A stretch of DNA of 64,000 bases. Source: Chondrosia reniformis. Its lineage: Eukaryota > Porifera > Demospongiae > Chondrillida > Chondrillidae. A program made the translations under genes and the position numbers. Positions within the stretch are counted from its first letter, which is position 1. The number at the start of each line of letters is the position of its first letter. The notes under the pieces were generated by a model. That model did not search any database, had not been told where the DNA came from, and saw nothing but the letters and a program-made list of their open reading frames with translations. Of the stretch, positions 5,068 through 61,439 are shown in pieces. Location of the stretch: assembly GCA_947172415.1 (NCBI GenBank), contig OX359189.1:4974501-5038500 (forward strand), in the 5' to 3' direction.

Positions 5068-5460
5068 GATATATGTTCATTTCACAGTTATCTGACAAAT
5101 TGAAATTTTTTATCAATGTAACACATGGTTTCGATATAAATTTCCCATAGGTTTTCTATAGTCCTATGGCCTTTTATATGCAGACTTTGTCCTCAGTTTT
5201 CTAACAAACGAAGCCTAAATAAAAAATCCCTTAATTTAAATGAGTTTTATACCCTATACTTTATGATGATATGCCCATTTTGTTTCTAGATCCTTTCTTG
5301 TAGCCATATGAATTATTTAATTATATTACATTATTTATTTATATTAGATTACCTTAGTTTATTGTAACTTGTACTGTATATATCTAGAACTCAGTAATGA
5401 ATTGATCATGACCAATTGCAAATTGACTTCAGCCATGACAATCAGACTCCTTCATCATAG
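5068..5460 (+). repeat. copy of the CATAGGTTTTCTATAG repeat family ending in the GTAACTTG motif
   Basis: Carries the shared block from the ATCTGACAAATTG segment through CCATAGGTTTTCTATAG and TTTATACCCTA to GTAACTTGTACTGTA (5364-5378). Related copies lie at 7925-8278, 37970-38167, 42230-42608, 58565-58925, 60717-61415 (minus, interrupted) and 63800-64000. This copy marks the outer end of the left arm of the large inverted duplication; its mirror partner is 60717-61415. Confidence 0.8.
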
Positions 5461-5865
5461 CTCAAAATTAATAAAAAAGAATTTTGCCTACACATTCATG
5501 ATACATAATATGTAAAATGCATGCCCAGTCAAAATAGCTCAATAACAAAAAAGGTTTCATGGAAGAATGTGGCCATGCATGCAAAGTACAAAAATGCATG
5601 CATCTATGTATATATAATGAGATTCTTACAGTATTAAACAAACACCTAGTTTCAGGTGTCTTTCTGCAATGGTAAGGGAGAAACAACAAAGACTTACTCT
5701 TGCAACCTGTCAAATTTGACAACAGCTGTAACAGATGACACCCTTTCTTTAATCCAGGATACAGGTATTAATATAGTATTGTTTGGTCCCAAATTAAAAT
5801 TGGTTTACCAAAGCAATTCCGTTTTGGTTGCTGTTGCTACCAATTAACAAAAGCAAACCATATAT
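5461..5865. repeat. left-arm segment mirrored at 60260-60716
   Basis: Matches the reverse complement of 60260-60716 throughout, including the AAAAAGAATTTTGCCTACAC and AAGCAAACCATATAT stretches. No protein family is recognised in either copy; the short frames are not conserved as proteins between the copies. Confidence 0.75.
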
Positions 5866-6252
5866 ATACAAGTTAAATAAAACATTCAAAAATGAAGTTA
5901 AAAGTAGGGATGGCACTATAACAGTGATTGGCATATCTATAAAAAGTAACGAAACAAGAAAGTGATCATAATATGGTAAGGCTAACATTGCAGAAGTGGC
6001 AAACTGAAACTTAACTAAACACATCACTTCTATGTTTGGGCGCATCATGGATACACTAGAAGTAGGGATTGATGCGCCCAAACATAGAAGTGATGTGGTT
6101 AGTTACGTTTCAGTTTGCCACTTCTGCAATGTTAGCCTTACCATATTATGATCACTTTCTTGTTTCGTTACTTTTTCTAGATATGCCAATCACTGTTATA
6201 GTGCCATCCCTACTTTTAACTTCATTTTTGAATGTTTTTATTTAACTTGTAT
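5866..6252. repeat. foldback (long inverted-repeat) element
   Basis: Two arms of about 170-190 bp, beginning ATACAAGTTAAATAA and ending TTATTTAACTTGTAT, pair almost base for base around a short centre containing GGGCGCATCA...TGATGCGCCC near 6050. It looks like a non-autonomous foldback MITE. A second copy sits at 59865-60255 in the mirrored arm. The homology between the arms of the large duplication stops exactly at this element's outer edge (6252 / 59865). Confidence 0.85.
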
Positions 6253-7874
6253 TGCCTCTTTTTTCTTATTAGCATTGTTTTTTTGGCGATCGAAAATCCC
6301 ATCGTTCTTGATTTATGAGGTGTTAATTGATAATACATTGAATAGGGATGACATGTTTTTTCGGCCATCCATCCTTACTCTCCGATAACGCACTACTTTC
6401 AGACTCAAGCTCAGTGCTTGTATATGTGACTATATATATATATATCGGGAAAGTATGACCTGGTGGCCTTTGTGTAGACTTATATATTGCAACCAAGCAG
6501 TTGAACTATGTACCTGGATGGACAGCTTGGTAGCCTAGCTAATTGCATAAGGAGTATGTTTGTAATATATAACTGGAATGAAAGGACAAGCAGCAACAGT
6601 AATAAAATCTCAAATTACTTCAATTCCTTCTGCTGGCCATTAAAAACTTAAGTAAAGAGTATAAGCTGTTTTTTGTGAGACAAATTAAACTTTAAATGTC
6701 TCCTTGCCAAGCATGCATGGAACCCTTAAAATTCAAATTGGCATACTTGTTCATTGTGTATATCACACATGCATGGCATCTATAACAGTGGTGATGATGT
6801 ATATGTCTACATTTATGTTTAATATCGTTCCATAATATCATCATCTGTGTACATGTATTGATATGATATTGCATTAATTGAATAAAATGTTCATTTAAAT
6901 TATCAAGATAACCTTTCCTTTATATCCATATATATGGCTCCAAGGATATAATCAATTACAGTTGATAATTCTCAATTAAACTCCATCATCACATGCACAT
7001 GGCAAATCCATAGGACATTTATGGTAATATGCAACTTACAACAGAGTTGATTATAGAGATTGTTCCAAAACATACAAAATGAGATACTGTAGATTACTTC
7101 AATAGTGCATGACTACATCGCTTTTAGAAAAGTCATTGAAATGACCATTTTCATGCATTGATCATATACCAGTAAGGTACATGTTAAACCTAATGGCATA
7201 CTGTCACTTCCCAAATCACTCTTGAATAACAAATATTCAAATGGTATCACTACCCTGCCTTCTACTACATATATAGAGTAGGTTTTATGACCTTGTTTGA
7301 TTCAATATGCGGATTTTAAGAACTAACATGACAGTCCTAAGTTTACAGCTTGTAATGAACCTAAACAAACAAACATAATAAAAACACAAAATTCTTTTGA
7401 GAACTACTACAACAGACTAGTGATTGACCAGTGGCAACTAATATATATATATATATGGCAATTATTAGCTATATACTACGAACATAGATCTTGTATATAT
7501 ACTTATACCTGACATTTCAGTAGCCATACATGACTGTCCATGCAAAAAATTAACATTTTTACTATATGACCAATATTGAAAGAGCTTCTACAGTAATATG
7601 TAAAAACAGCTTTAAAAATTTTTACTTCCGTTTAGAGCTACTTATATACCATATTAACAAACATATTACCTAATGATAGAAATGTTCTTAGGAATGATTG
7701 ATAACTTTAATCAATTAAAATGATTGAATATGAATTTGGAACCCTATACAGATATGTAACAATGTGATTTGTTATTAATTCAGCTTATCTACTTAGGAAA
7801 GAATTAGAAGAACAAGATATAAGCTCAGAAAGTCCAGCAGACGAAGATGAAGAGTTGTATATATATATATTATT
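6253..7874. other. non-coding stretch, nothing recognised
   Basis: AT-rich, with (AT)n runs near 6430 and 7440. No gene or named repeat recognised. This 1.6 kb has no counterpart in the mirrored arm, where a different repeat lies at 58926-59864. Confidence 0.5.
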
Positions 7875-8278
7875 ACACAGTGCAAGTTACAAGTTTATAC
7901 ACGGATGCAAGTGACTCACAATAATTAAGCAAAACTTCGCCAGACGTTTCCTATGCACATGTACCATGATATATGTTGGTATCACAGTTATCTGACTAAA
8001 TGAAAATTTTTATTAATATAACACATGGTTTAAATATCAATTTTCCATAGGTTTTCTATAGTCCTATGGCCTTTTCTATGCAGACTTTGTCCTCTGTTTT
8101 CTAACAAACAGAGGCCTAAATAAGAAATCCCATAATTTTAAATGAGTTTTATACCCTATACTTTATGATGATATGCCTATATTTTTCTAGATCCTTTTTG
8201 GAGCCATATGAATTAATTAATTACATTATTTATTTATTTATATAGATTATATTAGTATAGTGTAACTTGCATTGTGTA
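7875..8278 (+). repeat. internally deleted repeat copy bounded by ACAGTGCAAGTTAC motifs
   Basis: Begins with ACACAGTGCAAGTTAC (7875-7890) and ends with GTAACTTGCATTGTGTA (8262-8278), so the ends are inverted repeats of each other. The interior is the CATAGGTTTTCTATAG family block. It is the shortest copy that shows both ends as a clear TIR pair, consistent with a MITE. Confidence 0.65.
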
Positions 8279-8396
8279 TATATAGCAGCTGATTTATAAT
8301 ATTAGATACTAAGCAAACATGTATCATAATACAATGACTAATGGGCCCCAGCTTGGCCTTGTGCTTGTTTCTAAAAAGTACATACACGTGTCATTC

Positions 8397-8438
<42 letters not shown>

Positions 8439-8439
8439 G
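8279..8439 (+). other. 5' leader of the RLE retrotransposon with (AAT)n
   Basis: About 110 bp of leader, including GGGCCCCAGCTTGGCC, then an (AAT)n run at about 8398-8434, directly precede the first Met codon at 8440. The same leader and a shorter (AAT)n precede the second copy on the minus strand (58420-58520). The microsatellite therefore belongs to the duplicated unit rather than to the target. Confidence 0.7.
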
Positions 8440-11224
8440 ATGGAGGCCCCACAGACCTGGCAATCTCAATCGCGCTCCACATTGCGCTGCTGCCCCTGCA
8501 TGAAAACCGGAAAATTTGTTAGATGCCAATGCGTTAAAAAGGGTCAGCCTTGTGTGGGTTGCTGGCCTTCTTTGGCAAGCCCCAGCCAATGTGCGAACTC
8601 GGAGCACCTTCACAGCCATCTGGCTGTTGTCACGGTCAATTTAGCTGCTAGCGCGCCATCATCTGAACACCTTGATGATTATAACAGTGATCAGGCCTCC
8701 TACATTAGACCATCTGTTAGTTTCTTGAGCCAGTCGAAGAAAGTGTTGAAAAGAATTCCACGTAATTCCAGAATATGTGTCGCTAGGAGACTTGCAACCC
8801 TGGTCGAACAAGTGGTCACCCGCAACGACATTCCTGCATGGTTAGCGCCCCTGCAGTTCCCAAAGAAGTGCCTATTTACTCCACCTAGAGGCGGAAAGTG
8901 CTGGAACCTGGCATCCTTGGTAAAAAACCAAGTTCTCCACGAGTCACACAGCATTCAAAACGAGGCTCAAAATCCTCAGCTCAGTCGTTGCCCAGGTAGA
9001 TCCAAAGCTAGCAACAAAGCACCCTTGCTCATCCTGGCTCTCAGATATCTCACCTGAGCTGCAATTCCACTTTGCAATTCCCAATCAACACACAGTAATT
9101 TAGAAGGCCATCACATCATTCCCAAATGGCTCAGGAGGTGGTCCGGATGGCCTCCTCCCTCAGCATTTGAAGGACCTGACAGGCAATTCCGCTGGTGATG
9201 GAGGTGTTTCCCTATTGGAATCCTTAGGTGGGCTTCTATCTTTTATCCTGGAGGGCAGGACTCCACCACCTATACGTCCACTCTTCTTTGGTGTTAATCT
9301 CACTGCCCTGACAAAGAAAAGCGGTTGGAGTCGCCCCATTGCCGTTGGCTGCACCCTCAGAAGACTTGCTGCAAAATGCGCTTGCCTTCATGCTTTGGAG
9401 TCCACCCCAGCATTGCTGTACCCACATTAATTGGGTTTTGGTATCCCAAGAGGAGCTGATGCAGCCGTCCATGCTGCCCGCATCTATCTATCGCAAATGC
9501 CTAACAACAAGGCTCTCCTCAAAGTGGATTTTAGGAATGCTGTCAGCAGCATTAGATGCGACAAGATGCTGGAAGCTGTTAAAGCATACATCCCGGAATT
9601 GTTGCCATTTGTGCATTCGGCCTACTCTGCCCCGTCAATATTGTTATGGAATGAGGTCCTTATTCCATCATCAGAGGGAATCCAACAGGGGGACCCACTA
9701 GGCCCTTTGCTGTTTAGCCTCACCATCCGTGAGCTTAAATCCAGCCTGGTGTCGGAGTTTAAGGTCTACTTCCTAGATGATGGCACCATGGGCGGCGACC
9801 TCGATGATGTGACAGCTGACTTGAAGAGGATTAATGAGGAAGGTCAGGCATTGAGTCTGATATTCAATGTGTCAAAGTCTGAACTGATCTCACATGATCA
9901 GTCAAAACTGGGCACTATGTTCTCTACCTTTCATGACCTAGTTTTTGTGGATCCCAAAGATGCCACCCTGTTGGGCTCCCCCCTAGGTCCCAATTCCATG
10001 ATTGATTGCCTCCACAGTCAAATCAATCAGTTGAGGTTGGTTGGAGAACGTCTTTGCCATCTTGAAACCCATGACGCCATTAACATCCTACATCACTCAC
10101 TTTCAATCCCAAAACTTCTCCACATACTCAGGACATCACCAGTTTTTCTTCACCTCTTTTGGTATCCTGGGATGAGCTACTCTTGTCTGTTTGGATCAGA
10201 ATCACAAACATTGATTTGAGACTGGGAGATCCATCCTGGTTACAGGCATCACTTCCAGTCTCATCTGGCGGTCTAGGGCTTAGGAATGCCTCAAATCTTG
10301 CACCCTCTGCTTTTTTGGCCTCTGCTAATGGAGCATCCGCCCTGGTCCAGAAACTACTTCCACCACACCTACCATCCTCACCCACAGCGATAGAGAGACC
10401 GCTCTATCCACTTGGAAACGTGGCCTACTGGAAGACACACCCCTGCCCCCTTGCAGTTTACGTGGCCGTCAGAAGTCATGGGACCAACACAGAGTTGAAC
10501 AGCTTTACCTATCCCTCCTGTCCAACTGTGACAACAACATATCTAGGATCCGTCTTCTTGCAGCTGCCTCAAAGCATTCTGGAGCTTGGCTTAATGCCCC
10601 TCCAGTCTCCTCCCTTGGTCTGCGAATGTCCAACGAAACTATTGGCATAGCTGTGGGTCTACGGGTGGGGGCTGCCATCTGTCATCCTCACAACTGCGTG
10701 TTTTGTGGCAGGGAGGTCGACCAGCTTGGCCATCACGGTTTATCATGCAGATACAGTCAGGGCCGCCTTGCTCGACACAATGCGTTGAACAGCATCATCC
10801 ATCGCTCCTTGGCTGCAGCAAAGATTCCTTCCCGCCTGGAGTCAACTGGTCTCCACCGCTCAGATGGCAAACGCCCCGACGGTATCACCATGACCCCATG
10901 GTCAGAAGGCAAGTTCCTTGCCTGGGACGCCACTTGTGTCAACACCTTTTGCGTGTCCGACAACAACAAGTGTGCCTGAGAGTGTGGAGCAGCTGCAGCA
11001 CATGCTGAAGGAGAAAAGGCCGGCCAGCCTTGACCGTGCCTACTCCTTCCAGTTCATTGCAATTGAGACCTCAGGTTCAGATGGCCTCAGTACCATGTCT
11101 TTCCTGAGAGTACTAGGCCATCGTTTGAAGACAAACACAGGAGAGCCTCAGTCTCTTGTATTTCTATTGCAAAGGCTCTCTGTAGCCATCCAGACTGGGA
11201 ATGCCATCTCAGTGTTTGGCTCCC
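8440..11224 (+). pseudogene. non-LTR retrotransposon with N-terminal Cys cluster, RT and restriction-like endonuclease (copy 1, broken)
   Basis: Decayed single-ORF element. From 8440 the product opens with a Cys cluster (CCPCMKTGKFVRCQCVKKG...CVGC). Around 9431-10219 lie RT motifs: LLKVDFRNA (motif A), IQQGDPLGPLLF (motif B) and FLDDGTMGG (motif C). At 10626-10979 come a C-x2-C-x7-H-x4-C finger (VFCGREVDQLGHHGLSC) and then KRPDG...LAWDAT, the RLE catalytic pattern. The tail contains RLSVAIQTGNA. RLE plus a single RT ORF places it in the R2-like group of early LINEs; the clade is undecided. It has several frameshifts. A deletion near 9030, compared with copy 2, removed about 150 bp. The 3' end is cut at 11224, where an oppositely oriented relative begins. 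Confidence 0.82.
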
Positions 11225-12060
11225 TTGTGCTTGATAAGAAACAAGGGGCTGTCCTTAAGATGTATAAGATTTTTGGAATGGCAAGAGAGTGTTTCATTAG
11301 CACAATGGCATCATGGCCGTCCAAGACATGGAGCCTAGACCCCAGGGTATTGAGATTATGGATCTTCTTAAGGATTGCAGAAGAGAGAATCTGAATCACC
11401 AATGGGACTGCCCACGAGGGTAGCCTCTCTGGGATCAGTCCTACAAAGGTTAGGGGCACAAGCCAACAACTGAGATCCAGCCCAGGTGTCACTTATAAGC
11501 TCTGTCTTCTCATGGTTTAGGTTGAGACCAAGCAGGTTAGCTTCACGTTCTATAAGTTGGATATCCTCATATTTTTCATTTTCACAACCACCTAGTGTAC
11601 CGTCATCTAGATAGAATACTTTGAAAGTACACTGCACCTTGGTAATCAATGGGTGAATGCCTAAACAGAAAGCAAAGGACCCAAAGGATCACCCTGCTGG
11701 ATACCTTCAGATGATGATATCACATACTTCTGAATGAAAAGGGATGATGGAGCAGAATAACAGGAAAAAAACATACGGGAAAATCTCTGGAGTGACTTCC
11801 TTCACAACTTCCAGAATTTCGACGAATGCAATTGAAGGCGTTCTTAAAGTCCAGTTTAAGCATTATCTTGTCTTTGGGAAGTGTACTTAAAAAGGACCTA
11901 GCTACGTGGACAGCTACTTCACACACGTGAGCAATTCCAGATCCCAATTGTAGAGGGGCAGGTGTTGATCCAGTACACTTCATAACTCTAGAAGGTGCGA
12001 GTTTAGCCACTGCTACATAAGAACCCTCCATATAGCGGAAATCTCCGGCTCGTGTGTGAA
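11225..12060 (-). pseudogene. second RLE-type non-LTR retrotransposon, RT part (broken)
   Basis: On the minus strand, successive frames give LPKDKIMLKLDFKNAFN (RT motif A, about 11880-11830), VFYLDDGTLGG (motif C, about 11610-11580), then HDAIVLMKHSLAIPK near 11300. It is related to, but clearly different from, the element at 8440-11224. A stretch matching this element's post-RT region reappears on the plus strand at 54232-54345, continuing there into the endonuclease. It is interrupted by stops and frameshifts. Its inner end abuts the truncated 3' end of copy 1 at 11224/11225. Confidence 0.75.
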
Positions 12061-12235
12061 TGAAACAAGAAGTGTAAATTCTATCTATTAACAGTGCAGC
12101 CCACATAATTCGAATTAGTACATTTTCATATTTCACTGTATGCAGCTGAGTTTTTGAACGGCTAAACCACTTACACAGGATACATATTTCAGTATTATTG
12201 TATAGCAAGTTAGTATTTTTTCATTCTCTAATAAA

Positions 12236-12237
<2 letters not shown>

Positions 12238-12273
<36 letters not shown>

Positions 12274-12310
12274 ACACACTCACACACACACATAGCACAC
12301 ACACACAAAT
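12238..12310. repeat. (CA)n microsatellite
   Basis: Interrupted CA repeat. The mirrored arm has the corresponding (GT)n at about 53342-53398, in the same relative position, so it predates the inverted duplication. Confidence 0.9.
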
Positions 12311-13178
12311 ATACATACACACCGAAAAATAGTTTTACTAAGGAGATTCAAACCTTGCAATCTACAACTGCTGAAGACATTGAAGACTGATCCTGGCTTG
12401 ATGTTTCCACATTAGATGCAAACTGGGATAGCAATTCTGAATCTGAACACACCACAAGTTTAAACTTTAACAGCAAATCTGAAGCAGGACAAAAAATATA
12501 ACCAGCAGTCCTAAGAAAATACAAAGAAAAAGGCAGAGAATTTATTCTGACTCAGATAACAACTCCAGACTCTAGGGCTCAAACGGTGAGACAAACATTG
12601 CTAAACCGGCCACCTAAAAACTCAGGATGATAGTGCCCTTGAGGATAATACATCCAGTGACTCACTAGAGGAAGATTGTTACGCTCATCCTAGAGATCAA
12701 AGATATTGATTTTAATTAAAAAAACTAGAAAAAAGAAAGTAACAGGTTACTCACATTTTTCAATTGTAATTTTGGTATCCCAGGCATTCCTACAAAAGGC
12801 ATATGTAAATAGGAGGTGATTTTCATAAATATACATGCATATACCTGAACCCAAAGCATAAACTTCATCCAGTTAGTTAGTACCATAGATCCTTGAACAT
12901 CAAGATTGGAAGGGTATAGGTGCATTACTCACAGTATTAGTGTTGCAATAATGGAAGGGTTCCATTGTTTATTTAACACCTATTAATTATGTGCACACGA
13001 ATGTTGGAGTGTCAGTATGATAAATGAGGTTATAACTATAATCTATTGGCTTGGAGATTGGAATTTTATCAATTTTCGGACATCCTATTCAGCCACAGGA
13101 AACAACGAGCTTAAGAATATAAAATCTTGTAATGCAGCAATTTCCACTGATTCCAATGATACCAAATGTGATGTATTT
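12311..13178. repeat. left-arm segment mirrored at 52245-53340
   Basis: Matches the reverse complement of 52245-53340 except that the right copy holds an extra element at 52889-53147. Near 12500 the left arm reads uninterrupted across the insertion point (AAAGAAAAAGGCAG), giving the empty site. No protein family is recognised. The homology stops at 13178, where an 11.6-kb stretch absent from the right arm begins. Confidence 0.8.
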
Positions 13179-13659
13179 TAGAGAGCTCTCAATAGTAAGG
13201 TATTCTCTTTCTAACAATCTGCATCTAATGGCTTAGTATGCAACCAACACAGAATAAACTGTTATGAATACATGACACAGCCACTAACACCGAACATGTA
13301 AGATTCCAATTCAATCAATAAAATAATAATGTAGCTACAGTAAGTATAATAATTCAAATCAGTTGAACAAGTTGCATAAAACTAAGCTACTACAGTTCTA
13401 GCTCTGCTTCTCATGATCCTGAGCTACAGGTTACTCACAACTTTTAGCCAGATTTGGCCTCACTTCACGTTCCTTTCCACGGGTGCCATTATAATAATTA
13501 TTAATGGCACCTCTTACATTGTAAACGATTTTCTGCATATACATGTACAGAAGTCATTAAATCATTTTTATTATTTATCATTATGCATAAAGTCAAACTT
13601 GATAAGATAAAGATAATCAAGTATCTTGAGTTTAAAAAACTAACACATATGTATGTATG
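13179..13659. other. non-coding stretch, nothing recognised
   Basis: AT-rich; no gene, no obvious repeat partner in the window. It contains a short inverted repeat around ATAATAATTATTAAT near 13490. Confidence 0.45.
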
Positions 13660-13968
13660 CAAACTCAAAACTATAATTGTCTGGTACTAATTAGATGTCT
13701 AGTTAACAGATTTCTGGTTGACTCTTGTACTCTTGTATGCGACAGCATAGTACAAATATAATAATACAAATAGTATATAGTACAAAGAGTAAAAATGTTT
13801 CAAGGCTATATCACATAGAAAATGTTTTCGCGCAAGCTTTACGTAACATAGTATTAGTAAATGTGGTTTGTAAATCTATTTTGTTGGTTCAACATTTGAC
13901 GCGAAGGAAGAGAAAGAGAATTTTAAGCTGGAAAACGGAAACCAGTAAAATGTCTGCCATTTTTTGAC
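13660..13968 (+). repeat. dispersed repeat, related to 21470-21710
   Basis: Shares diverged blocks with 21470-21710: GGTTGACTCTTGT, GCTTTACGTAACATAGTATT, GACGCGAAGGAAGAGAAAG and TTTTAAGCT. Both copies lead into the sequence that forms the repeat units of the adjoining minisatellite (AAAGCCAGCC). Confidence 0.6.
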
Positions 13969-13997
13969 AGATGAGGTTACAAACAGGAAGCCATACG

Positions 13998-14362
13998 TTA
14001 AAATATAAGACAAAGCTTATATTTTTAACTAGATATAACGAAAGTCAGCCAAAGGTCTTAAGAATTAAGAGAAAGCTTATTTTAAACTATACATAACAAA
14101 AGCCAGCCAAACGTCTTAAGAATTAAGACAAAGCTTATATTTTTAACTAGATATAACGAAAGTCAGCCAAAGGTCTTAAGAATTAAGAGAAAAATAAGCT
14201 TATTTTAAACCATATAGATATAACGAAAGCCAGCCAAACGTCTTAAAAATTAAGAGAAAGCTTATTTTAAACTATAGATAACGAAAGCCAGCCAAGCATC
14301 CTAAGAATTAAGAGAAAGTTTTAATTTTAACTAGACAACGAAAGCAAGCCAAACGTCTATGT
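13998..14362. repeat. minisatellite, about 62-bp period, roughly six units
   Basis: Tandem units each contain AAGCTTAT...TTTAACTA, ATAACGAAAG, CAGCCAAACGTCTTAAG and AATTAAGA. Units differ by small indels and point changes. It is followed by two copies of a different unit (14372-14490). Confidence 0.85.
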
Positions 14363-14371
14363 ATCAAGCAG

Positions 14372-14490
14372 GGTTATATCACTATATTTTGAGAGCTGCA
14401 TCTTTAACTGGCAATGTAAAGTCGTGCTAGGGTTATCACTATAATATTTTGCGCACTGCATCTTTAACTGGCAATGTAAAGTCGTACTAC
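14372..14490. repeat. two-copy tandem repeat, about 65-bp unit
   Basis: GGTTAT(AT)CACTATA...GCTGCATCTTTAACTGGCAA and TGTAAAGTCGT occur twice in succession, with minor differences. Confidence 0.8.
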
Positions 14491-15155
14491 AAAACTGTAT
14501 CTGTGGGAAGTCATATAATAACGCACAAATGCTAATCCGCTAAAATAATATACTGCATACGTGGTCAATGCCCCCGAAAATCAAACTACCACGGATAAGA
14601 CATGTATGCAGACAAAAATTAAAAGAACTCCATAACTTACTGGACTATTGAAATTCCTCTTCCTTGGCCGACGTCTGCGTAACATTTTTTGGTAGGGCCA
14701 GTGTCAGTGCTAGCGTGCATGATCTTGGGCTGTGGTACTACATGTACAGGCTGTCAATTAGTTTCTGAGTCGAGATCTTGAACGGATCTTTGGCCATTCT
14801 GCCAGCTGCAACCCTGTGGGATATACTACAAACTTTAAAATAGAAGTGTATTTAATTATACTAAATTAAACAAAAAGGTGACTTTACGTCTTCAATTTCA
14901 GGCATCTCAGATATTTCGGTCATTTCAGGCATTGATTCGTCAAAATCCATTTCCTTGCAATTTGTCATATTCACCTTACTCAAATAAGGGCTAAAATTTG
15001 CATTCCTCGCCTTTTATAAAGTCACTATATACTGTGAACTCTAACTTTTAATTAATCACTATTTTCCAAGACATTTACAATCATATCTAGAAAGTATCAG
15101 AACAAATTTCTTTACAATCCTTCACACATATATTTAGGTACGTATACTAATTATT
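14491..15155. other. non-coding stretch, nothing recognised
   Basis: No gene or named element seen. No long open frame on either strand. Confidence 0.45.
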
Positions 15156-21712: not shown

Positions 21713-21735
21713 CCATTATGGTGACATATATATAT

Positions 21736-50480: not shown

Positions 50481-50682
50481 TTTACCCAAAAAGATGAGAA
50501 ATTTCCAAAAAAAGTTTTATGCTACAAAAAAAGAAAGGATATTGATCACCGTCAAGAATCATATAGTGAAAACCTTGTAAAAAGGATAGCCGATGCTCGC
50601 AAGTTATCTTTATCATCAGACAGTGATATTGAACAATACAAACTTTTAGGCATTCAAGACAGTCCTTTTTGATAATCGTCAA

Positions 50683-52245
50683 AGGTATCTTGATGTAATG
50701 TGTTTCCAATACTTTTCCCAACTGGAAAATATGGTCAGTACCATAATCGTGAGATCAAACTATCATAAAGTGAGTACATAAAATCACGTCTTTTAAGTAA
50801 GGATTCACGTTTCAAAAAAAATCCTCAATGTGTCTTTTATTATCGAATTACAAGAACTTTCTTCTGGTGTGTACAATATCTTAAAATCTTCAAAGAGTAA
50901 ATCTATGTCAGTCAGCTTACTATTAGACAAAATTGCTGAATTTGATGGCCAACTTGAAGCAAGTTTGTGTAATATGCTCCAGTCAGTTCGTGGTACTAAA
51001 CAGATCTGGTTTTGTAGGCAAAGTGAACTCCGATGCATGATACGAAATTTTGGACCACCTACTCTATTCCTCACGTTTAGCTGTGCAGAGTATGAATCTG
51101 GAGATATAATGGATTATCTTCAAAACGTTAACAATGTACCTTTTACATATAATATCGGAAAACTTTGTATTGAAGATCCAATATCACTTTCTAGACAATT
51201 TTCATTCAAATTTCATGCTTTCTTTAAAACTGTATTAATAAAGGGGTCCGTTCTTGGGGAAATTGATCACTTCTACTGGAAAAAGGAATACCAAGTACGT
51301 GGCGCACTGCATTATCATGCACTTCTTTGGATTAAGGGAGCTCTTGTTATTGGAGTTGATGATTCAAATGTAGTACTAAATTGGATTACAAATCATATAA
51401 CTTGTCAACTTCCAAATAAATCAATTAATCTAGAACTACACAGACTAGTCTTTAGGTATCAAATGCACAGATGTAGTGCATACTGTAAAAGAAGGTATAA
51501 ATATGGACAAGGTATTTATATAACAAGATGTAAATTTGGTTTTCCTCACCAAATTTGAACAGTTGATAACTTAAACTGTGTGGAAGATAGCCTAAAAACT
51601 CAAAAAAAAAATATAACCTAAAACGTGCTAAAAATGAAATTCATATAAATGATTACAATCCTCTCTTGCTATTCTTATGGAAGGCAAACATTGACATTCA
51701 GTTTGTTGCAGAGTCATCACTTGCTCTAGCCCACTATGTAAGTGGATACGTCACTAAGGCTGAAAAGAGTAGCAAGCAGGATATTTGGAATGATGTAAGT
51801 GAGTCTAAAACTATTTATAGTCGACTTTGGAATTTTGGAATACGTAGTTTGCGTTCTCGTTAATGTGGTCTCTATGAAGCAAGTGATTTGCTTTTAGGTG
51901 ATCATCTTAATGAAAAATCAAAAACTGTGAAGTGGATTGATATCTCTATGCCACATAAGAGAATACGAAGATTGAAGAATCAAAGTTCTTCAAGAATTAC
52001 AAAAGACTGACCCAAAAAGTGAAAATATTTTTAATGATAATTTAATTGATACATTTTATCCAAGACGGCCACAGAATCTTAAAAATCTTTGTCTCTATGA
52101 TTTTGTGGCTACTTATGCTTTTTCTAATATCAATGACAAAGAAAGGGTATATAGGAAGCTTAAAAATTCTAGACTTATTAATCACAAATTATTTGATCTA
52201 GAAAAAGAATCACAAAGAGAAGATTATTTTTACTCTTTGAAAAAA
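50683..52245 (+). pseudogene. Helitron Rep protein, right-arm copy (broken)
   Basis: Plus-strand frames give, in order, VMCFQYFSQLENM, ELQELSSGVYNILKSSKS, SVRGTKQIWFCRQSEL, PPTLFLTFSCAEYESGDI, LGEIDHFYWKKEYQVRG and ALHYHALLWI (HUH motif H-Y-H). Then come MHRCSAYCKRRYKYG, FLWKANIDIQFVAESSLALA, VSGYVTKAEKSSKQDIW, CGLYEASDLLLGDHL, NLIDTFYPRRPQNL and NHKLFDLEKESQREDYFYSL. It stops there; no helicase follows. Stops at 51556 and 51861 and shifts near 51985 break it. It retains the segment deleted from the left copy. Confidence 0.9.
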
Positions 52246-52888
52246 CATCACATTTGGTATCATTGGAATCAGTGGAAATTGCTGCATTACAAGATTTTAT
52301 ATTCTTAAGCTCTTTGTTTCCTGTGGCTGAATAGGATGTCTGAAAATTGATAAAATTCCAATCTCCAAGCCAATTAATTATAGTTATAACCTCATTTATC
52401 ATACTGACACTCCAACATTCTTGTGCGCATAATTAATAGGTGTTAAATAAACAATGGAACCCTTCCATTATTGCAACACTAATACTGTGAGTAATGCACC
52501 TATACCTTTGCAATCTTGATGTTCAAGGATCTATGGTACTAACTAACTGGATTAAGTTTATGCTTTGGGTTCAGGTATATGTATATTTATGAAAATCACC
52601 TCCTATTTACATATGCCTTTTGTAGGAATGCCTGGGATACCAAAATTACAATTGAAAAATATGAGTAACCAGTTAGTTTCTTTTTTCTAGTTTATTTAAT
52701 TAAAATCAATATCTTTGATCTCTAGGATGAGCGTAACAATCTTCCTCCAGTGAGTCACTGGATGTATTATCCTCAAGGGCACTATCATCCTGAGTTCTTA
52801 GGTGGCCGGTTTAGCAATGTTTGTTTCACCGTTTGAGCCCTAGAGTCTAGAGTGTCATCTGAGTCAGAATAAATTGTCTGCCTTTTTT
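52246..52888. repeat. right-arm segment (mirror of 12520-13178)
   Basis: Inverse homology with the left arm resumes at AAACATCACATTTGGTATC, just after the Helitron fragment. No coding match. Confidence 0.75.
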
Positions 52889-53147
52889 AGGGGCTGCCAT
52901 AGGCAGCCCCTATATTGTTTTCATAACGCAATTTATGTATGGCTTCATGTTACGGATATATATATATATATATGTATAATATGAGTTCATACGCAACTAT
53001 CGTAACACTTAAGTTTTACGTCAATACATCGTTTTTGCAAATGGCGGCATTGAGGAAGCTTTAGGTAACGTAGTAGAACAAGTAGTTCGAGTAACTTCGG
53101 CAGGCGGCAGCCCCATATGTTTTTAAACTCGAACTACTTGTTCTTTG
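52889..53147 (+). mobile_element. palindrome-ended non-autonomous element, copy 2
   Basis: Starts AGGGGCTGCCATAGGCAGCC and ends GGCAGCCCC...TTTTTAAACTCGAACTACTTGTT. The left arm, near 12510, reads directly across the site (CTGCCTTTTTCTTTG as its complement), so this copy inserted after the arms separated. At most 1-2 bp could be duplicated. Confidence 0.85.
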
Positions 53148-53630
53148 TATTTTCTTAGGACTGCTGGTTATATTTTTTGTCCTGCTTCAGATTTGCTGTT
53201 AAGGTTTAAACTTGTGGTGTGTTCAGATTCAGAATTGCTATCCCTGTTTGCATCTAATGTGGAAACATCAAGCCAGGACCAGTCTTCAGTGTCTTCAGCA
53301 GTTGTAAATTGCAAGGTTTGAATTTCCTTAGCAAAAGTATATTTGTGTGTGTGTGTGTGTTGTGTGTGTGTGAGTGTGTGTGTGTGTGTGTGTGTGCGTA
53401 GTTTATTAGAGAATGAAAAAATACTAACTCGCTATACAATAAAACTGAAATATGTATCCTGTGTACGTGGTTAAGCTGTACAAAACCTCAGCTGCATACA
53501 GTGAAATATGAAAATGTTTGAATTCGAACTATGTGGGCTGCACTGTTAATAGAGATAGAATTTACACCTCTTGTTTCATTCACGCACGAGCCTGAGATTT
53601 CCGCTATATGGAGGGTTCAAAGTAGCAGTT
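53148..53630. repeat. right-arm segment (mirror of 12020-12500) with (GT)n
   Basis: Includes the interrupted GT repeat at about 53342-53398. The homology breaks at about 53630, where the left arm continues into retrotransposon coding sequence and the right arm does not. Confidence 0.8.
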
Positions 53631-54030
53631 TTAATATAGAAAGTTCAGACGGTGCTTTAAAATTGAATGAAAGAGTAAAGATTGTGATTAGGCAATATCA
53701 GTAAACATTGTGGTTATAGAAAAATGCTTTGGTGTACGCAACGTCTATACGTCTAATGGGTATGTGTCAAAGATTTCGCAAACAGTCACTTTCCGTATAG
53801 ATAATTCTTTATAGTGGTAAGCGGCTAGAAATAAACAAAAAAGTACTCTGTACAAATGTTTTTGTTTTAAAAATGTCGTGGCCAGAGAGTCAAAAGTGCG
53901 GTTTCTTTTAATATCATTTACTCTAACCTTTTCCACTGTTGCTGCTGCTATTTCGGTCCTCTTCGTACCTTAAATCCTATCTTAATAACGACTGGAACTG
54001 AACGGAAGCAAAATTATATATATTATTTTT
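53631..54030. other. spacer, nothing recognised
   Basis: No gene or repeat partner identified; ends in a TTA/AT-rich run next to the inverted 3' end of the retrotransposon. Confidence 0.4.
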
Positions 54031-54215
54031 TAATTATCATTATTATAATAATTATTATTATTATTATAATAAAATAAAGAAAGTTAGATATTTGGTTATC
54101 CAAATAAGGTCAAATGGCTCCAATAATGGCAGCGGCATTTCTTTCTGAATAGCCATGGATACCCGCTGGATTAAAAAATGTTTGGCCCTGGTATCACCAC
54201 TGATAGAAATCAATC
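54031..54215 (-). repeat. inverted copy of a retrotransposon 3' end
   Basis: Reverse complement of about 55300-55475 (GATACCAGGGC..., CCGCTGGATT, CATTTCTTTCTGAATAGCC), including the TTA-rich tail. Thus the plus-strand element is bounded by its own 3' end at both sides. Confidence 0.85.
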
Positions 54216-55430
54216 TATGGAATCTAGGCTCCATGTCTTGGACTGCCATTACGCCATTCTGCTAATGAAACACACTCTTGTCATTCCAAAAATCTTATAC
54301 ATCTTAAGGACAGCCCCTTTTTTCTTATCAAGCACTCTAGCAGTTTTTGACAGAGAACTCCAATCCCTACTTAGTGAAGTCCTTAACATCAATTTTGTCA
54401 ATGATGCAGTGTGGACTCAGGCCACACTACAAGTTAAGAATGGAGGAATCGGTCTTTGTAGTGCTGTGCAGCTTGCACCTTCTGCCTTCTTGGCCTCTGC
54501 TGCTACCTGTACCAATCTTATCACCACAATTCTGCATTCTAGTAGTCCAGCTCATCAATTAAATATCACTGGAGTAGACGAAGCCCTGTCTGAGTGGAAA
54601 AAGGACCACAATCTTTCCCCTCCTTCTCCATCGAAAGCCTCAAAGCAAAAGGCTTGGGACATTCCCCATGTAGAGGAAACCTACACGTCACTGCTGCAAA
54701 GGGCCAGAGTTCACGGGCCAGATTACTTGCTGCAGCAACCAAGGAATCTAGAGCATGGCTTAATGCTATGCCAATATCTGCCTTTGGTTTGTGTTTGGAT
54801 AATAAATCTGTTCGCACTGCCATAGGCCTACGGTTGGGAGCCCAACTTTCCCACCCCCATCCCTGTCAGCAGTGTGATCAACAAGTTGATGAACTAGGTA
54901 GACATGGTCTGAGCTGTTTGAAAATCCAAGGAAGATTTTGCCGTCATACTGCCATTAATCCATCATCAAAGTGAAGCTAATGGCAGCCCAGATACCATCA
55001 AATTTGGAGGCCTCTGGCCTTAACAGATCGGATGGTAAACGACCTGATGAGATAACCATCACTCCTTGGAAGTGTGGTGGCTCTTGAGTTTGGGACGTTA
55101 CTGTTCCTGATACCTTTGCCAATTCATATGAACACGTTGCCTGTCTGGGGGTTGGTAGAGTTGCTTCCCTCGCAGAGGAAAGGAAATCCACCAAGTATGA
55201 GCAACTTTTCGGGGTATACCATTTCAAACCAATTGCCATTGAAACTTCTGGCGCCTTTGGACCAGAAGCAGCTGACGTCTTTGATGATCTTGGCCATAGA
55301 TTGATTGCTATCAGTGGTGATACCAGGGCAAAACATTTTTTTAATCCAGCGGGTATCCATGGCTATTCAGAAAGGAAATGCCGCTGCTATTATTGGAGCC
55401 ATTTGACCTTTTTTGGCTAACCAAATATCT
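54216..55430 (+). pseudogene. second RLE-type non-LTR retrotransposon, C-terminal half (broken)
   Basis: Starts in the post-RT region (HYAILLMKHTLVIPKILYIL), then LAPSAFLASAATCTNL, ARLLAAATKESRAWLNAM, LGAQLSHPHPCQQCDQQ with the finger C-x2-C-x7-H-x4-C (ELGRHGLSC), and the RLE region SDGKRPDEITITPW...VWDVT. The end is PIAIETSGAFGPEAADVF, then AIQKGNAAAIIG. The frame changes near 54735 and 55000, and a stop lies just before VWDVT. It is the same family as the fragment at 11225-12060 but overlaps it only at about 54232-54345. It ends in an ATT-rich tail. Confidence 0.82.
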
Positions 55431-55687
55431 AACTTTCTTTTTTTATTGTTATTATAATAATAATAATAATTATATATTATTATTTTAATTATTATTATGG
55501 AAAAAGGATAATGATTTGTGGTAATTAGGGCATGAATGAGGTAACAGGATTAAGAAAAGAAAAGGCCTAAGTGTCCATATACAATAAAATACTAAATGAA
55601 ATAATACAGGAAACACAAACATTAAATAATTATATATGAAAAGTGATCTTATAACACATTTCCTTAAAAAATAAAATAAAGTCCAAT
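55431..55687. other. AT-rich spacer between the two RLE elements
   Basis: ATT-rich tail of the plus-strand element followed by the 3' untranslated end of the minus-strand one. No gene. Confidence 0.5.
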
Positions 55688-58497
55688 TCAACAGGTGGAC
55701 CCAAGGGAGCCCAACACTGAGATTGCATACCCAGTCTGGTTGGCTACAGAGAGCCTTTGCAATAGAAATGCAAGAGACTGAGGCTCTCCTGTGGTCGTCT
55801 TCAAATGATGGCCAAGAACCCTCAGGAAAGACATGGCGCTGAGGCCAACTGAGCCTGAGGTCTCAATCGCAATGCGCTGGAAGGAGTAGGCATGGTCAAG
55901 GCTGGAGTACTTGCCGGCCTTTTCTCCTTCAGCATGTGCTACAGCCATGGATACGCTGTTCAATGCATTGTGTCGAATAAGGTGGCCCTGACTGTATCTG
56001 CATGATAAACCGTGATGGCCAAGCTGGTCAACCTCCTTGCCACAAAACCCGCGGTTGTGAGGATGACAGATGGCAGCCCCCACCCGTAGGCCCACAGGTA
56101 TGTGAATAGTTTCGTTGGATATTCGCAGACCATGGGAGGAGACTGGAGGGGCATTAAGCCAAGCTCCAGAATGCTTTGAGGCAGCTGCAAGAAGACGGGC
56201 CCTAGATATGTCGTTGGACAGGAGGGATAGGTAAAGCTGTTCAACGCTGGGTTGGTCCCATGACTTCTGACGGCCACGTAAACTGCAAGGGGGCAGGGGT
56301 GTGTCTTCCGGTAGGCCACGTTTCCAAGTAGATAGAGCGGTCTCTTTATCGGTGTAGGGTGAAGATGGTAGGTGTTGTGGAAGAAGTTTCTGGACCAGGG
56401 TGGATGCTCCATCAGCAGAGGCCAAAAAAGCAGAGGGTGCAAGATGCGAGGCGTTCCTAAGCCCTAGACCGCCAGATGAGGCTGGAAGTGATGCCTGTAA
56501 CCTGGATGGATCTCCCAGTCTCAAATCAATGTTTGTGATTCTGACCCAAACAGACAAGAGTAGCTCATCCCAGGATACCAAAAGAGGTGAAGAAAAAACT
56601 GGTGATGTCCTGAGTATGTGGAGAGTTTCGGGATTGCAAGTGAGTGACGTAGGATGGTAATGGTGTCTTGGGTTTCTAGATGGCAAAGACGTTCTCCAAC
56701 CAACCTCAACTGATTGATTTGACTGTGGAGGCAATCAATTATGGAATTGGGACCTGGGGGGGAGCCCAACAGGGTTGCATCTTTGAGATCCACAAAAACT
56801 AGGTCTTGAAAGGTAGGGAACATAGTTCCCAGTTTTGACTGATCATGTGAGATGAGTTCAGACTTTGACATGTTGAGTGTCAGACCCAACGCCTGACCTT
56901 CCTCATTAATCCTCTTCAAGTCAGCTGTCAAATCATCGAGGTCGCCGCCCATGGTGCCATCATCTAGGAAGAAGATCTTAAACTCCTACACCAGGCTGGA
57001 TATAAGCTCACGGATGGTGAGATAAACAGCAAAGGTCCTGGTGGGTCCCCTGTTGGATACCCTCTGATGATGAAATTTCGACCTCATTCCATAACAAGAT
57101 TGACGGGGTAGAGTAGGCCGAATGCACAAATGGCAACAATTCCGGGATGTATGCTTCAACAGCTTCTAGCATCTTGTCGCATCTAATGCTGTTGAAAGCA
57201 TTTCCTAAAATCCACTTTGAGGAGAGCCTTGTTGTTAGGCATTTGCGATAGATAGATGCGGGCAGCATGGACGGCTGCATCAGCTCCTCCTGGGACACCA
57301 AAACCAAATTGATGTGGGTGCAGCAATGCTGGGGTGGACTCCAAAGCATGAAGGCAAGTGCATTTTGCAGCAAGCCTTCTAAGGGTGCAGCCAACGGCAA
57401 TGGGGTGAATTCCACCGCTTTTTTTGTCAGGGCAGTGAGATTAGCACCGTAGAAGAGTGGACGTATAGGTGGTGGAGTCCTGCCCTCCAGGATCAAAGAT
57501 AGAAGCCCACCTAAGGATGCCAATAGGGAAACACCTCCATCACCAACGGAATTGCCTGTCAGGTCCTTCAAATGCTGAGGGAGGAGGCCATCCGGACCAC
57601 CTCCTGAGCCATTTTGGAATGATGTGATTGCCTTCAAAATTACCTGTGTGTTGATTGGGAATTACAAAGTGGCATTGCAGCTCAGGTCAGATATCTGAGA
57701 GCCAGGATGAGCAAGGGGGTGTTTATCCTTAAGGGCCTCCAGTGTTTCTCCGTTGTGCTCGGCAGTTACATCTTCACTGCAGGCTAACCTTACAGCTCCC
57801 CTGTAGTTGCCCTCTTCCAGCTTACCTGAAACTCTGGCAGCAAGCAAGTCAATGGGTGCTTTGTTGCTAGCTTTGGGTCTACCTGGGCGTCGACTGAGCT
57901 GAGGGTTTTGAGCCTCGTTTTGAATGCTGTGTGACTCCTGGAGAACTTGGTTGTTTACCAAGGATGCCAGGTTCCAGCGCTTTCCGCCTCTAGGTGGAGT
58001 AAATAGGCACTTCGTTGGGAACTGCAGAAGTGCTAACCACGCGGGAATGTCGTTGCGGGTGACCACTTGTTCGACAAGGGTTGCAAGTCTCCTAGCGACA
58101 GATATTCTGGACTTAAGTGGAATTCTTTTCAACACTTTCTTCGGCTGGCTCAAGAAACTAACAGATGGTCCAAGTCGGAGGCCTGATCACTGTCGAATAA
58201 TGGCTTGCTAGCAGCTAAATCGGCCGTGACAACAGCCAGATTGCTGTGAAGGTGCTCCGAGTTCGCACATCGGCTGGGGCTTGCCAAAAAAGGCCAACAA
58301 TCCACACAAGGCAGACCCTTTTTCACGCATTGGTATCTAACATATTTTCCGGTCTTCATGCAGGGGCAGCAGCGCGATGTGGAGCGCTATTGAGATTGCC
58401 AGGTCTGTGGGGCCGCCATCTTATTATTATTATTATTATTAGAATGACACGTGTATGTACTTTTTAGAAAAAAACACAAGGCCAAGATGGGGCCCAT
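55688..58497 (-). pseudogene. RLE-type non-LTR retrotransposon, copy 2 (broken)
   Basis: Mirror of 8341-11224, about 94% identical where compared. From about 58420 it has the same Cys cluster (CCPCMKTGKYVRYQCVKKG, one Cys changed to Tyr), then KASNKAPIDLLAARVSGKLE, which the left copy lacks. Next are RT motifs (GGGPDGLLPQHLKDL, LRLVGERLCHLE and others in shifted frames) and an open 348-residue end (56734-55688). In that end the finger (GFCGKEVDQLGHHGLSC) has lost the first Cys, and the endonuclease core KRPDG...WDAT is deleted: LIRHNALNS joins directly to VAHAEGEKAGK. A true C-terminus (VLGSLGSTC) is present, unlike in the left copy. Confidence 0.85.
58419..58440. repeat. (ATT)n microsatellite in the retrotransposon leader
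   Basis: Shorter counterpart of the (AAT)n at 8398-8434, in the same position before the first Met codon. Confidence 0.85.
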
Positions 58498-58925
58498 TAG
58501 TCATTGTATTATAATGCATGTTTGCTTAGTATCTAATATTATAAATCAGCTGCTATAAATATATACAGTGCAAGTTACAATAAACTAAGGTAATCTATAT
58601 AAATAAATAATATAAATAATGTAATTAAATAATTCATATGGCTCCAAGAAAGAATCTAGAAACAAAATGGGCATATCATCATAAAGTATAGGGTATAAAA
58701 GTCGTTTTAAAATTAGGGATTTCTTATTTAGGCCTCCGTTTGTTAGAAAACAGAGGACAAAGTCTGCATATAAAAGGCCATAGGACTATAGAAAACCTAT
58801 GGAAAATTTATATTCAAACCATGTGTTATATTAAAAAAAAATTTCAATTTGCAGATAACTGTGAAACGAACATCTATCATGGTACATGTGCATAGCAAAC
58901 ATCTGGCCAAGTTTTGCTTAATTAA
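58498..58925 (-). repeat. right-arm repeat-family copy (mirror of 7925-8340)
   Basis: Begins after the boundary motif ACAGTGCAAGTTAC (58565-58578) and contains the CATAGGTTTTCTATAG block in reverse. Confidence 0.8.
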
Positions 58926-59629
58926 ATGAGCAAAATAATGAAGATAAGAAGGAAGAATTCAAGGTTACGATTGCGTAATCTGATGATGTATTATGATGTT
59001 TCCCTAGTGCTTCACCAACACCCTCGTATGCCGTTCCGTACACATTTAGTGAATCAGGTGACATTTCGAAAACGACACCACCTCGTTGGTAAAGAAGATC
59101 ATCCCTTTTGTGAACGGCTAGACAAGTCGACGCTCTCCTACGATAAGGAGCTACCGAATAAGCGAGTTGTAGCGAAGGTTAGATAAAGCGTTTTTGTATA
59201 CGTTCCCGTCAAATTTGAGACAGAGTTGTTTCTGTATTGATGCAAAAGACTGAATTCGTTTGGTCGACCGTATTACTTTGGTAATTTAAGCTCTGTCTTC
59301 TCTTCTTACGTTTTTGTTAATAATTTTTTACTTAGTTATGTATATCATTATGAGAATAAAGCCTTGTCTAGTGTCAGCAACATGAATTAACTAATTTCCT
59401 ATTTATACTGACTCTTATTGCTGATGAAGACCTCTGGGTCTAAACATCCAGAATTAGTAAATGCAAGTTACTGATGTTCAACAAGGCTTTATTCTTATCC
59501 ATGTGTGTATGTTTTCCATGTGTACATACAGTAGAATCTCATAACGAAATTGCTCATAGCGAATGTCTATAAGTGTAGTAAAATACTTTGCTAGCTAATT
59601 ACACTCAAGTACACTACACAGTGCAAGTT
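58926..59629 (+). repeat. repeat-family body with short ORF and PLE-type pLTR
   Basis: Near-identical to 61440-62160. Contains the recurrent ORF (58926-59186: HQHPRMPFRTHLVNQVTF, RKRHHLVGKEDHPF..., LPNKRVVAKVR). A terminal-repeat unit follows (about 59350-59515) in which GCTGATGAAGACC...GGTC lies between inverted arms ATAAAGCCTTGT / ACAAGGCTTTAT. It ends at ACACAGTGCAAGTTA (59616-59630). Confidence 0.8.
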
Positions 59630-59864
59630 AGATGATGCATCTGCATGCCATTATCAGCAAAAATTCCAGTTTCATGCAGGGGGTCTCAGCCAATAATCAC
59701 CACAGATTTGAGTTGCCTTGAGTGTGAGCTAGGAGTACCGTTGGTTGCTTACATGCATTCACATAAAGAACAGGGTTAGACTTGATTTAGTAACTTGCAC
59801 ACAGGGACATAAAGGCTGAGGCCTTTAATTTATTTCACGAACAATGTCCCTGTCCAATGAAGCA
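59630..59864. repeat. partial copy of the 49-bp-TIR MITE interior
   Basis: GATGATGCATCTGCATGCCAT...GGGGGTCTCAGC and ACAGGGACATAAAGGC match the interior of 36658-37105, diverged, without the terminal repeats. Confidence 0.7.
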
Positions 59865-60255
59865 ATACATGTTAAATAAAAACATTCAAAAATTAAGTTA
59901 AAAGTAGGGATGACACTATAACAGTGATTGGAATATCTAGAAAAAGTAACAAACAGGAAAGTGATCATAATATGGTAAGGCTAACATTGCAGAAGTGGCA
60001 AACTGATACTTAACTAAACACATCGCTTCTATGTTTGGGCGCATCAATCCCTACTTCTAGTGTATCCATGATGCGCCCAAATGTAGAAGTGATGTGTTTA
60101 GTTAAGTTTCAGTTTGCCACTTCTGCAATGTTAGCCTTACCATATTATGATCACTTTCTTATTTCGTTACTTTTTCTAGATATATATTCCTATCACTGTT
60201 ATAGTGCCATCCCTACTTTTAACTTAATTTTTGAATATTTCTTTTTAACTTGTAT
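59865..60255. repeat. foldback element, second copy
   Basis: Same palindromic structure as 5866-6252, in the mirrored arm, with several substitutions and small indels. Confidence 0.85.
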
Positions 60256-60716
60256 ATATATATATGGTTTGCTTTAGTTAATTAGTAGCAACAGCAACCA
60301 AAACAGAATTGCTTTGGTACAAAAATTTTAATTTGGGACCAAACAATAGTATATTAATACCTGTATCCTGGATTAAAGCAAGGGTGTCATCTGTTACAGC
60401 TGTTGTCAAATTTGACAGGTTGCAAGAGTAAGTCTTTGTTATTGGTCCCTTGCCATTGCAGAAAAAACCTGAAACTTGGTGTTTGTTTAATAATGTAAGA
60501 ATCTCATTGTATATACATAGATGCATGGCCACATTATTCAATGAAACCTTTTTGTTATTGAGCTATTTTGACAAGGCATGTATTTTACATATTATGAATC
60601 ATGAATGTGTAGGAAAAATTCTTTTCTATTAATTGTAAGCTATGATGAATGAATGTCATGGCTGAAGTCAATTTGCAATTGGTCATGATCAATTCCTTAC
60701 TGAGTTCTAGATATAT
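60256..60716. repeat. right-arm segment (mirror of 5461-5865)
   Basis: Reverse complement of the left-arm segment; no recognised coding content. Confidence 0.75.
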
Positions 60717-61439
60717 ACAGTACAAGTTACAATATACTAAGGTAATCTAATATAAATAAATAATGTAATATAATTAAATAATTTATATGGCTCCAAGAAA
60801 GGACCTAGAAACAGAATGGTTATATTATCATAAAGTTTAGGGTATAAAACTCATTTTAAATTTAGGGATTTTTAGGGGCTGCCACAGGCAGACCCTATAT
60901 TGTTTTCATAACACGATTTATGTATGGCTTCATGTTACGGATATATATATATAATACGAGTTCATACGTAACTATTATAACACATTTTATACGTCGATAT
61001 ATGTATAATACGAGTTCATATGCAACTATTGTAACAGTTAATTTATACGTCAATACATCATTTTTGCAAATGGCGGCGTTCAGGAAGCTTTAGTTAACGA
61101 AGCTTTTCTGTCGCTATTTATAATTTTCAGGACACTTAAGCATTCTCAATCGTTAGGATTAAGAATAATATATTAAAGCCCTATGATGCGGCCAAGTAGT
61201 TCGAGTAAATTTGGGGGGCGGAAGCCCCATGAGTTTTTAAACTTGAACTACTTGTTTATTTAGGCCTCCGTTTGTTAGAATACGGAGGACAAAGTCTGCA
61301 TATAAAAGGCCATAGGACTATAGAAAACCTATTGGAAATTTTTATTGAAACCATGTGTTATATTGATAAAAAATTTCAATTTGTCAGATAACTGTGAAAC
61401 GAACATATATCATGGTATATCTGTATGACCAATGTTTGG
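60717..61439 (-). repeat. repeat-family copy interrupted by a palindrome-ended element
   Basis: Opens with ACAGTACAAGTTAC (60717-60730), is split by the element at 60872-61257, and resumes at TTAGGCCTCCGTTTG. The uninterrupted sequence is seen at 58718-58740. Confidence 0.8.
60872..61257 (+). mobile_element. palindrome-ended non-autonomous element, copy 3
   Basis: AGGGGCTGCCACAGGCAGAC start, TATTGTTTTCATAAC, and GGAAGCCCC...TTTTTAAACTTGAACTACTTGTT end. Its interior is close to copy 1 (shared CAGGAAGCTTTAGTTAACGA). It is inserted within a T-rich stretch of the repeat family. Confidence 0.85.

Follow-up and report, generated by a model that had tools for sequence, protein, structure and literature searches.

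The two arms of a large inverted repeat in the genome of the sponge Chondrosia reniformis are probably sister copies of one low-copy segmental duplication of at least 27 kb, located mid-chromosome among transposons, which was exchanged between contigs C1 and C6 and subsequently duplicated locally in inverted orientation. The repeat lies within a 64,000-nucleotide stretch of contig OX359189.1 (C1:4974501-5038500), referred to here as the window; the genome assembly comprises 117.4 Mb in 15 contigs. The left arm (plus orientation) is designated A and the right arm (minus orientation) B, and their arrangement is that of the assembled sequence. It represents a real structure of an ordinary kind.

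Pairs of inverted blocks were extracted from a self-BLASTN comparison of the window. All ten pairs described in the initial annotation of this stretch were recovered to within about 60 bases, and the arm sizes of 27.5 kb for A and 16.7 kb for B as well as the 12.15-kb centre were found as described there. Splitting of the ten pairs at insertions and deletions resulted in 13 inverted blocks in mirrored order, which span 8,507 bases in A and 8,354 bases in B with slight overlaps counted twice. The blocks contain 461 substitutions in 8,288 ungapped columns, corresponding to a divergence of 5.6%, and the values for individual blocks range from 3.1 to 8.5% without significant heterogeneity (chi-square 18.7, 12 degrees of freedom, p = 0.097); with gaps included, single blocks reach only 85-96% identity. 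At eight of the 12 steps between successive blocks the gap is close to zero (-7 to 4 bases) in one arm and 136-3,711 bases in the other, which indicates either an insertion in the latter or a deletion in the former and would be expected if both arms derive from a single ancestral sequence. The other four steps show gaps in both arms, the biggest measuring 13,429 bases in A versus 693 bases in B. The best inverted chain consists of 14 blocks and 8,972 aligned bases, including a short palindrome in the centre as the fourteenth block, and the best direct chain of four blocks and 2,060 bases. When the partners were placed at random, the chains averaged 3,888 bases and did not exceed 6,990, and none of 5,000 placements reached 8,972; this control assumes independence of the blocks, an assumption that does not hold for blocks belonging to one element.

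The proposal that A and B stem from one contiguous segment and not from many independent insertions is supported by the uniform divergence of the blocks and by the alternation of gaps between the arms, along with two insertions present in both arms and missing on C6 and a 472-bp piece found only in A and B. Widely differing identities were not seen among the A-B blocks; uniform identity is nevertheless weaker evidence than was initially assumed, since the nested long interspersed nuclear element (LINE), the miniature inverted-repeat transposable elements (MITEs) and the Helitron show comparable divergence from their copies at other genomic sites. The further claim that a private, window-scale duplication explains the structure on its own was not supported, as a collinear copy of nearly the same divergence exists on C6 and additional copies of the Helitron part are present on C2, C5, C6 and C10.

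The third copy, located at C6:3870565-3891593, aligns with arm A in 20 collinear blocks that extend from A 5860 to A 26172, with 803 substitutions in 12,111 columns (6.6%), and its aligned length to arm A exceeds that of arm B. Pieces of C6:3866293-3893000 were used for this alignment and kept separate; the adjoining sequence C6:3893001-3903000 has no match to the block. Most of the LINE (A 8411-10869) is absent from the C6 copy, as are insertions of arm A such as those at 15155-15555, 19294-20657 and 22460-23223, and C6 has insertions of its own. Arm B and C6 differ at 148 of 2,171 columns (6.8%). Additionally, the region at 4.32-4.34 Mb of C10 matches arm A in 11 blocks with 493 substitutions in 6,535 columns. 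Most of this alignment falls between A 22030 and 32162, with two patchy blocks further to the left.

The copy number of individual parts was assessed with a genome-wide DNA search that skips very common words and ranks the candidates by similarity. Near-full matches to 12009-13179 were obtained only in A, B and C6 (best 40 of 85 candidates); at two further places the match covers about 130 bases at 79%, and a short part resembling a simple repeat matches widely. Outside its MITE, the segment 16616-18720 has near-full matches only in A and C6 (best 40 of 363 candidates). By comparison, a 1.2-kb query including the foldback MITE at 5866-6252 gave at least 94 matches, mostly in the MITE part (best 40 of 2,442 candidates), and a query including the 603-bp MITE at 31353-31955 gave at least 41 (best 40 of 146 candidates). 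The foldback MITE matches in both orientations, which corrects the corresponding block of the initial annotation. The segments 5066-5387 and 7922-8285 are members of a family of repeats named R1, of which several other copies occur in the window and more in the genome. The idea that the outer part is one high-copy element was rejected, as only the MITE, R1 and LINE pieces have several or many copies and the remaining outer segment has few among the pieces searched. The recurrence of the same block order on C6 therefore identifies the sequence as a segmental duplication of low copy number that occurs at least three times (A, B and C6) and on more than one contig. Segmental duplications are defined as sequences of at least 1 kb with about 90% identity or more, and the block agrees with this class in length, in substitutional divergence and in low copy number. 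Its contents are a Helitron, a LINE, several MITEs, a decayed CDK5-activator fragment and unassigned sequence.

The relationship of the three copies was deduced from 1,479 three-way columns (sums over seven segments), in which A and B differ at 71, A and C6 at 79 and B and C6 at 95 positions; A is the odd one out at 26 sites, B at 42 and C6 at 50. Two insertions connect the arms. The first is an R1 element that lies in a TATA tract in arm A, whereas C6 contains the tract without the element; arm B carries an R1 element with a right junction identical to that of A. The second is the arm B element bounded by terminal inverted repeats, whose interior is matched by the 113-bp piece of arm A. These shared insertions and the 472-bp segment favour the grouping ((A,B),C6), in which the internal branch would be short, although they do not prove it.

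Several observations weigh against this grouping. Since the three copies are nearly equidistant, the sister relationship of A and B depends mainly on the two insertions, and the odd-one-out counts of C6 and B (50 versus 42) do not differ significantly (p = 0.47). The closest pair varies by segment, being B-C6 in the LINE end and in 13054-13179 and A-C6 in 12009-12116 and 12320-12529. Block divergence is heterogeneous for A-C6 (p = 2e-6), B-C6 (p = 0.04) and C10-A (p = 8e-14), and not for C10-B (p = 0.73). An independent R1 insertion at one TATA tract is possible, given that R1 elements are numerous and sit in such tracts, and the left R1 junction of B is not comparable, as B is devoid of A 6262-7870. 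Likewise, a different copy of the terminal-inverted-repeat element could be the source of the 113-bp piece of A, and the detection of the 472-bp segment only in A and B is no proof of its rarity because of the word filter of the search.

With the C2 and C10 copies added, the informative sites of the Helitron part unite either A and C6 (six sites in one block) or A and B (five sites in three blocks), and no informative site of this part backs any other split. These sites set A, B and C6 apart from C2 and C10 and cannot separate A-B from A-C6. Accordingly, every informative Helitron site separates the copies that carry the outer segment from the two that lack it.

With respect to the order of events, one copy would at first have been exchanged between C1 and C6, in either direction. 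Soon afterwards, the C1 copy would have been duplicated locally in inverted orientation, possibly by template switching or another break-repair route, giving rise to A and B with the spacer between them. Private insertions and deletions would then have accumulated, and B would have lost the equivalent of A 13180-26608 except for some Helitron sequence. Arm A is the more plausible source copy, since its Helitron runs 310 bp into the spacer and that of B is truncated at the arm edge. The segment as such showed no indication of a function, though no test for one was made.

The edges of the copies were also compared. The inner edges of both arms had been reported to coincide with a boundary motif, which held for arm B, where position 44731 lies at such a motif, and failed for arm A. 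Three other Helitron copies continue to match arm A past 32578, two of them to about 32,888 (C2:4840655 and C6:3751951) and the third to about 32,650 (C2:4115354), while B stops at 44731. As the Helitron homology of A continues past 32578, the inner edge is a break in B within the Helitron and not a common terminus, and the interpretation of the inner edges as a shared terminus was rejected for arm A. The outer edges differ as well: the C6 copy begins at A 5860, at the MITE, arm A ends at 5066, and the R1 copy of arm B is longer. The end of arm A lies about 240 bases past an open frame at 2423-4822, and insertion of the element containing this frame may have truncated the R1 copy at 5066. The frame comprises 799 codons with a guanine-cytosine (GC) content of about 0.54 and resembles a reverse transcriptase, with a match that stays under the curated cut-off (E = 1.1e-5).

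An unlikely alternative is that A, B and C6 represent independent insertions of one giant Helitron of at least 27 kb whose replication went beyond its 3' end and took along the outer segment together with the LINE, the MITEs and the CDK5-activator fragment, two of the insertions having landed in opposite orientation with 12 kb between them. If insertions and deletions are disregarded, the outer segment directly adjoins the Helitron in both A and C6, including across A 23761, and the Helitron family has many copies; on C10, weak reversed matches (75-81%) to A 6725-7428 and patchy matches around 16391-17775 lie beside the Helitron. Gene-fragment capture by terminator bypass and Helitrons of up to 39 kb in maize, both described in the review PMC6431247, would fit such an element. 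The ends on the 5' side of the Helitron are nevertheless different in the three copies, at about 32888 in A, at 44731 (equivalent to 32578) in B and at 26172 in C6, beyond which no homology was found in the next 11 kb, a distance that a longer C6 insertion could exceed. A common outer end was not found either, with C6 starting at 5860 and A and B reaching at least 5066, although the copies may be truncated. Moreover, no near-full match to the outer segment lies beside other Helitron copies among the scored candidates, and A and B share the insertions that are missing on C6.

It is also doubtful that the segment was copied here twice from elsewhere, for example from C6 or from a lost copy, and acquired its opposite orientations by chance without a local inverted duplication. 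Such a source would have to carry the 472-bp piece and the two insertions specific to A and B, and none was found elsewhere; the similar distances between the three copies and the existence of an interchromosomal copy are compatible with this course of events. An assembly artefact, in which a haplotype or fold-back misjoin set two variants of a single locus in opposite directions, is very improbable: the insertions and deletions private to each arm, noted initially and confirmed here, together with the 5.6% divergence speak against a fold-back, as do the 12-kb spacer and the divergent third copy on another contig. A mirrored order that arose by chance among independent transposon copies is the least probable of all and was rejected on the basis of the C6 collinearity and the placement test, since even with several blocks being multi-copy repeats (foldback MITE, R1 family, 603-bp MITE and LINE) the chain contains low-copy segments and near-zero gaps at eight of the 12 steps.

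The proposed local inverted duplication of a dispersed block can be compared with known systems. Segmental duplications, or duplicons, occur in pericentromeric, transposon-rich chromosome regions. The present block resembles pericentromeric duplicons in that long low-copy blocks with 5.6-6.6% substitutions are found both on other contigs and nearby in inverted orientation, form a repeat mosaic with a gene fragment, and lie where Helitron copies are concentrated mid-contig; it differs in the heavy erosion of the arms and in a pericentromeric position deduced from location alone. Sex chromosomes carry large inverted repeats and palindromes, with which the structure has in common two long opposite arms around a spacer, but its arms are 5.6% diverged and a third copy exists elsewhere. 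Reading of a single window can mistake a dispersed duplicon for a private palindrome. The availability of three copies diverged by about 5-7% allows nested insertions to order the events, which bears on the exchange of blocks among mid-chromosome regions of a compact genome and reveals nothing unexpected for such regions. A literature search combining Helitron, inverted duplication and segmental duplication returned no title concerning the locus.

The Helitron assignment is based on the detection of Helitron_like_N in A, B and C2 and of Pif1-type helicase domains in A, C2 and C6, the PIF1 match of arm A at 26372-26692 being just under the cut-off. The better-kept copy at C2:4842000-4851200 contains DUF6570, Helitron_like_N, PIF1, Pif1 2B and a weak OTU domain in that order; the OTU match is above the curated cut-off in the C6 and C10 copies and below it in the C2 copy. 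OTU domains in Helentrons and the capture of gene fragments are described in PMC6431247 and PMC4067079. The order of DUF6570, Rep (Helitron_like_N), Pif1-type helicase and OTU in the C2 copy is like that of OTU-bearing Helitrons, whereas Helitron sequence makes up no more than a part of the duplicated block, the window contains broken copies, and termini and an apurinic/apyrimidinic (AP) endonuclease domain were not established. Position 52240, at which many copies stop, was considered as the Helitron end and dropped, as the query itself becomes other sequence there. Several family copies start at 23761 or 22030, which are candidate Helitron 3' ends without a clear terminal hairpin by eye. With respect to chromosomal position, 25 of 26 picked Helitron loci are located at 0.35-0.65 of their contig, compared with 8 of 32 loci of the 603-bp MITE (Fisher p = 2e-8), in a non-random, similarity-ranked sample that leaves out loci on C13 and C14 and uses an interpolated length for C5. 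This position suggests a pericentromeric location of the region.

Table 1. Coordinates of the inverted arms and of the elements within them (positions in the window)
Feature	Position	Strand	Remark
Arm A, outer part	5066-13179	+	Pairs with 52240-61413
472-bp segment, arm A	5388-5859	+	Not found outside A and B (2 of 2 candidates)
High-copy foldback MITE	5866-6252		C6 homology begins here
R1-family insertion, arm A	7871-8276	+	In TATA tract; right junction common to B; empty site on C6
LINE fragment (RVT_1), arm A	8400-11227	+	3' end near 11227 common to copies on C13, C5 and C11
113-bp piece, arm A	11227-11339	+	Matches interior of terminal-inverted-repeat element of B; adjoins LINE end
Arm A only	13180-26608	+	No equivalent in arm B; C6 collinearity extends to A 26172
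CDK5-activator region, piece 1, arm A	18721-19294	+	
Insertion in arm A	19295-20656		Weak RVT_1; missing on C6
CDK5-activator region, piece 2, arm A	20657-21123	+	Pfam match 20691-20900, E = 4.3e-8
Decayed Helitron, arm A	24858-32888	-	Helitron_like_N 26924-27259, PIF1 26372-26692, Pif1 2B domain 25308-25934
Arm A, inner part	26609-32578	+	Pairs with 44731-51546
Arm A gap segment	28214-29705		273 bases in B; Tc1-like transposase at 28457-29230
Helitron-family sequence past inner edge of arm A	32579-32888	+	Not in arm B
Arm B, inner part	44731-51546	-	Pairs with 26609-32578
Truncated Helitron, arm B	44731-52239	+	Helitron_like_N at 50830-51558
Arm B segment without counterpart in A	45611-49321		P-element-like transposase at 46838-47944
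Helitron sequence, arm B, without counterpart in A	51547-52239	-	Present in the C2:4842000-4851200 copy
Arm B, outer part	52240-61413	-	Pairs with 5066-13179
Element with terminal inverted repeats of about 190 bp, arm B	54067-55463		Missing on C6
LINE fragment, arm B	55702-58427	-	Pairs with arm A LINE
Longer R1-family copy, arm B	58556-59630	-	Same junction as arm A R1
Partner of 5388-5859, arm B	60266-60706	-	Pairs with 472-bp segment

A decayed fragment of a CDK5 activator (p35-type) was noticed at about 19150-21040 of the window, inside the transposon-rich duplicated block. On C6, the corresponding sequence (L068:4104-4589) retains an open frame of 162 codons that matches the CDK5 activator family (Pfam E = 1.1e-14) and four distinct PDB sequences with E-values of 1e-12 to 3e-12. 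In arm A, stops and a 1.36-kb insertion interrupt the region, and in arm B a counterpart is missing. The fragment may have been captured, or it may belong to a host locus that was duplicated. The Pfam scan covered open frames of at least 70 codons, namely 16 of the 22 in A 11340-24860, three of the four in A 5388-8400 and chosen frames of C6. The curated cut-off was exceeded in these frames by the CDK5 activator, in both A and C6, by the Helitron helicase and OTU (C6) and, within an insertion of C6, by a DDE_1 transposase; matches to RVT_1, CEP76 peptidase-like, DraIII, DM13, Coatomer and DUF1491 fell below it. A scan for tRNA genes and an Rfam scan at the gathering threshold found nothing.

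Two minus-strand frames at 11371-12220 show weak reverse transcriptase matches (E = 0.006 and 0.05) and lie mostly within A 11340-12008, a stretch without a counterpart in arm B. Additional R1 copies of the window are located at 36644-39040, 41830-42618 and 63401-64000. Among these, a direct repeat of 530 bp (37056-37584 and 38511-39040) is 99.6% identical and a pair of 592 bp (37577-38168 and 41830-42421) is 99.7% identical, both being far more alike than the arms. In the spacer, a start codon within GC-rich sequence leads into an open frame (33234-33452) without a Pfam match that ends by eye at a site resembling a splice donor. The spacer further includes a transposase fragment of the IS1595/Merlin type at 39752-40213 (DDE_Tnp_IS1595, E = 7.7e-19) and two open frames on the plus strand of the centre at 42821-43872 that match DUF3987 (E = 1.6e-6 and 1.5e-4).

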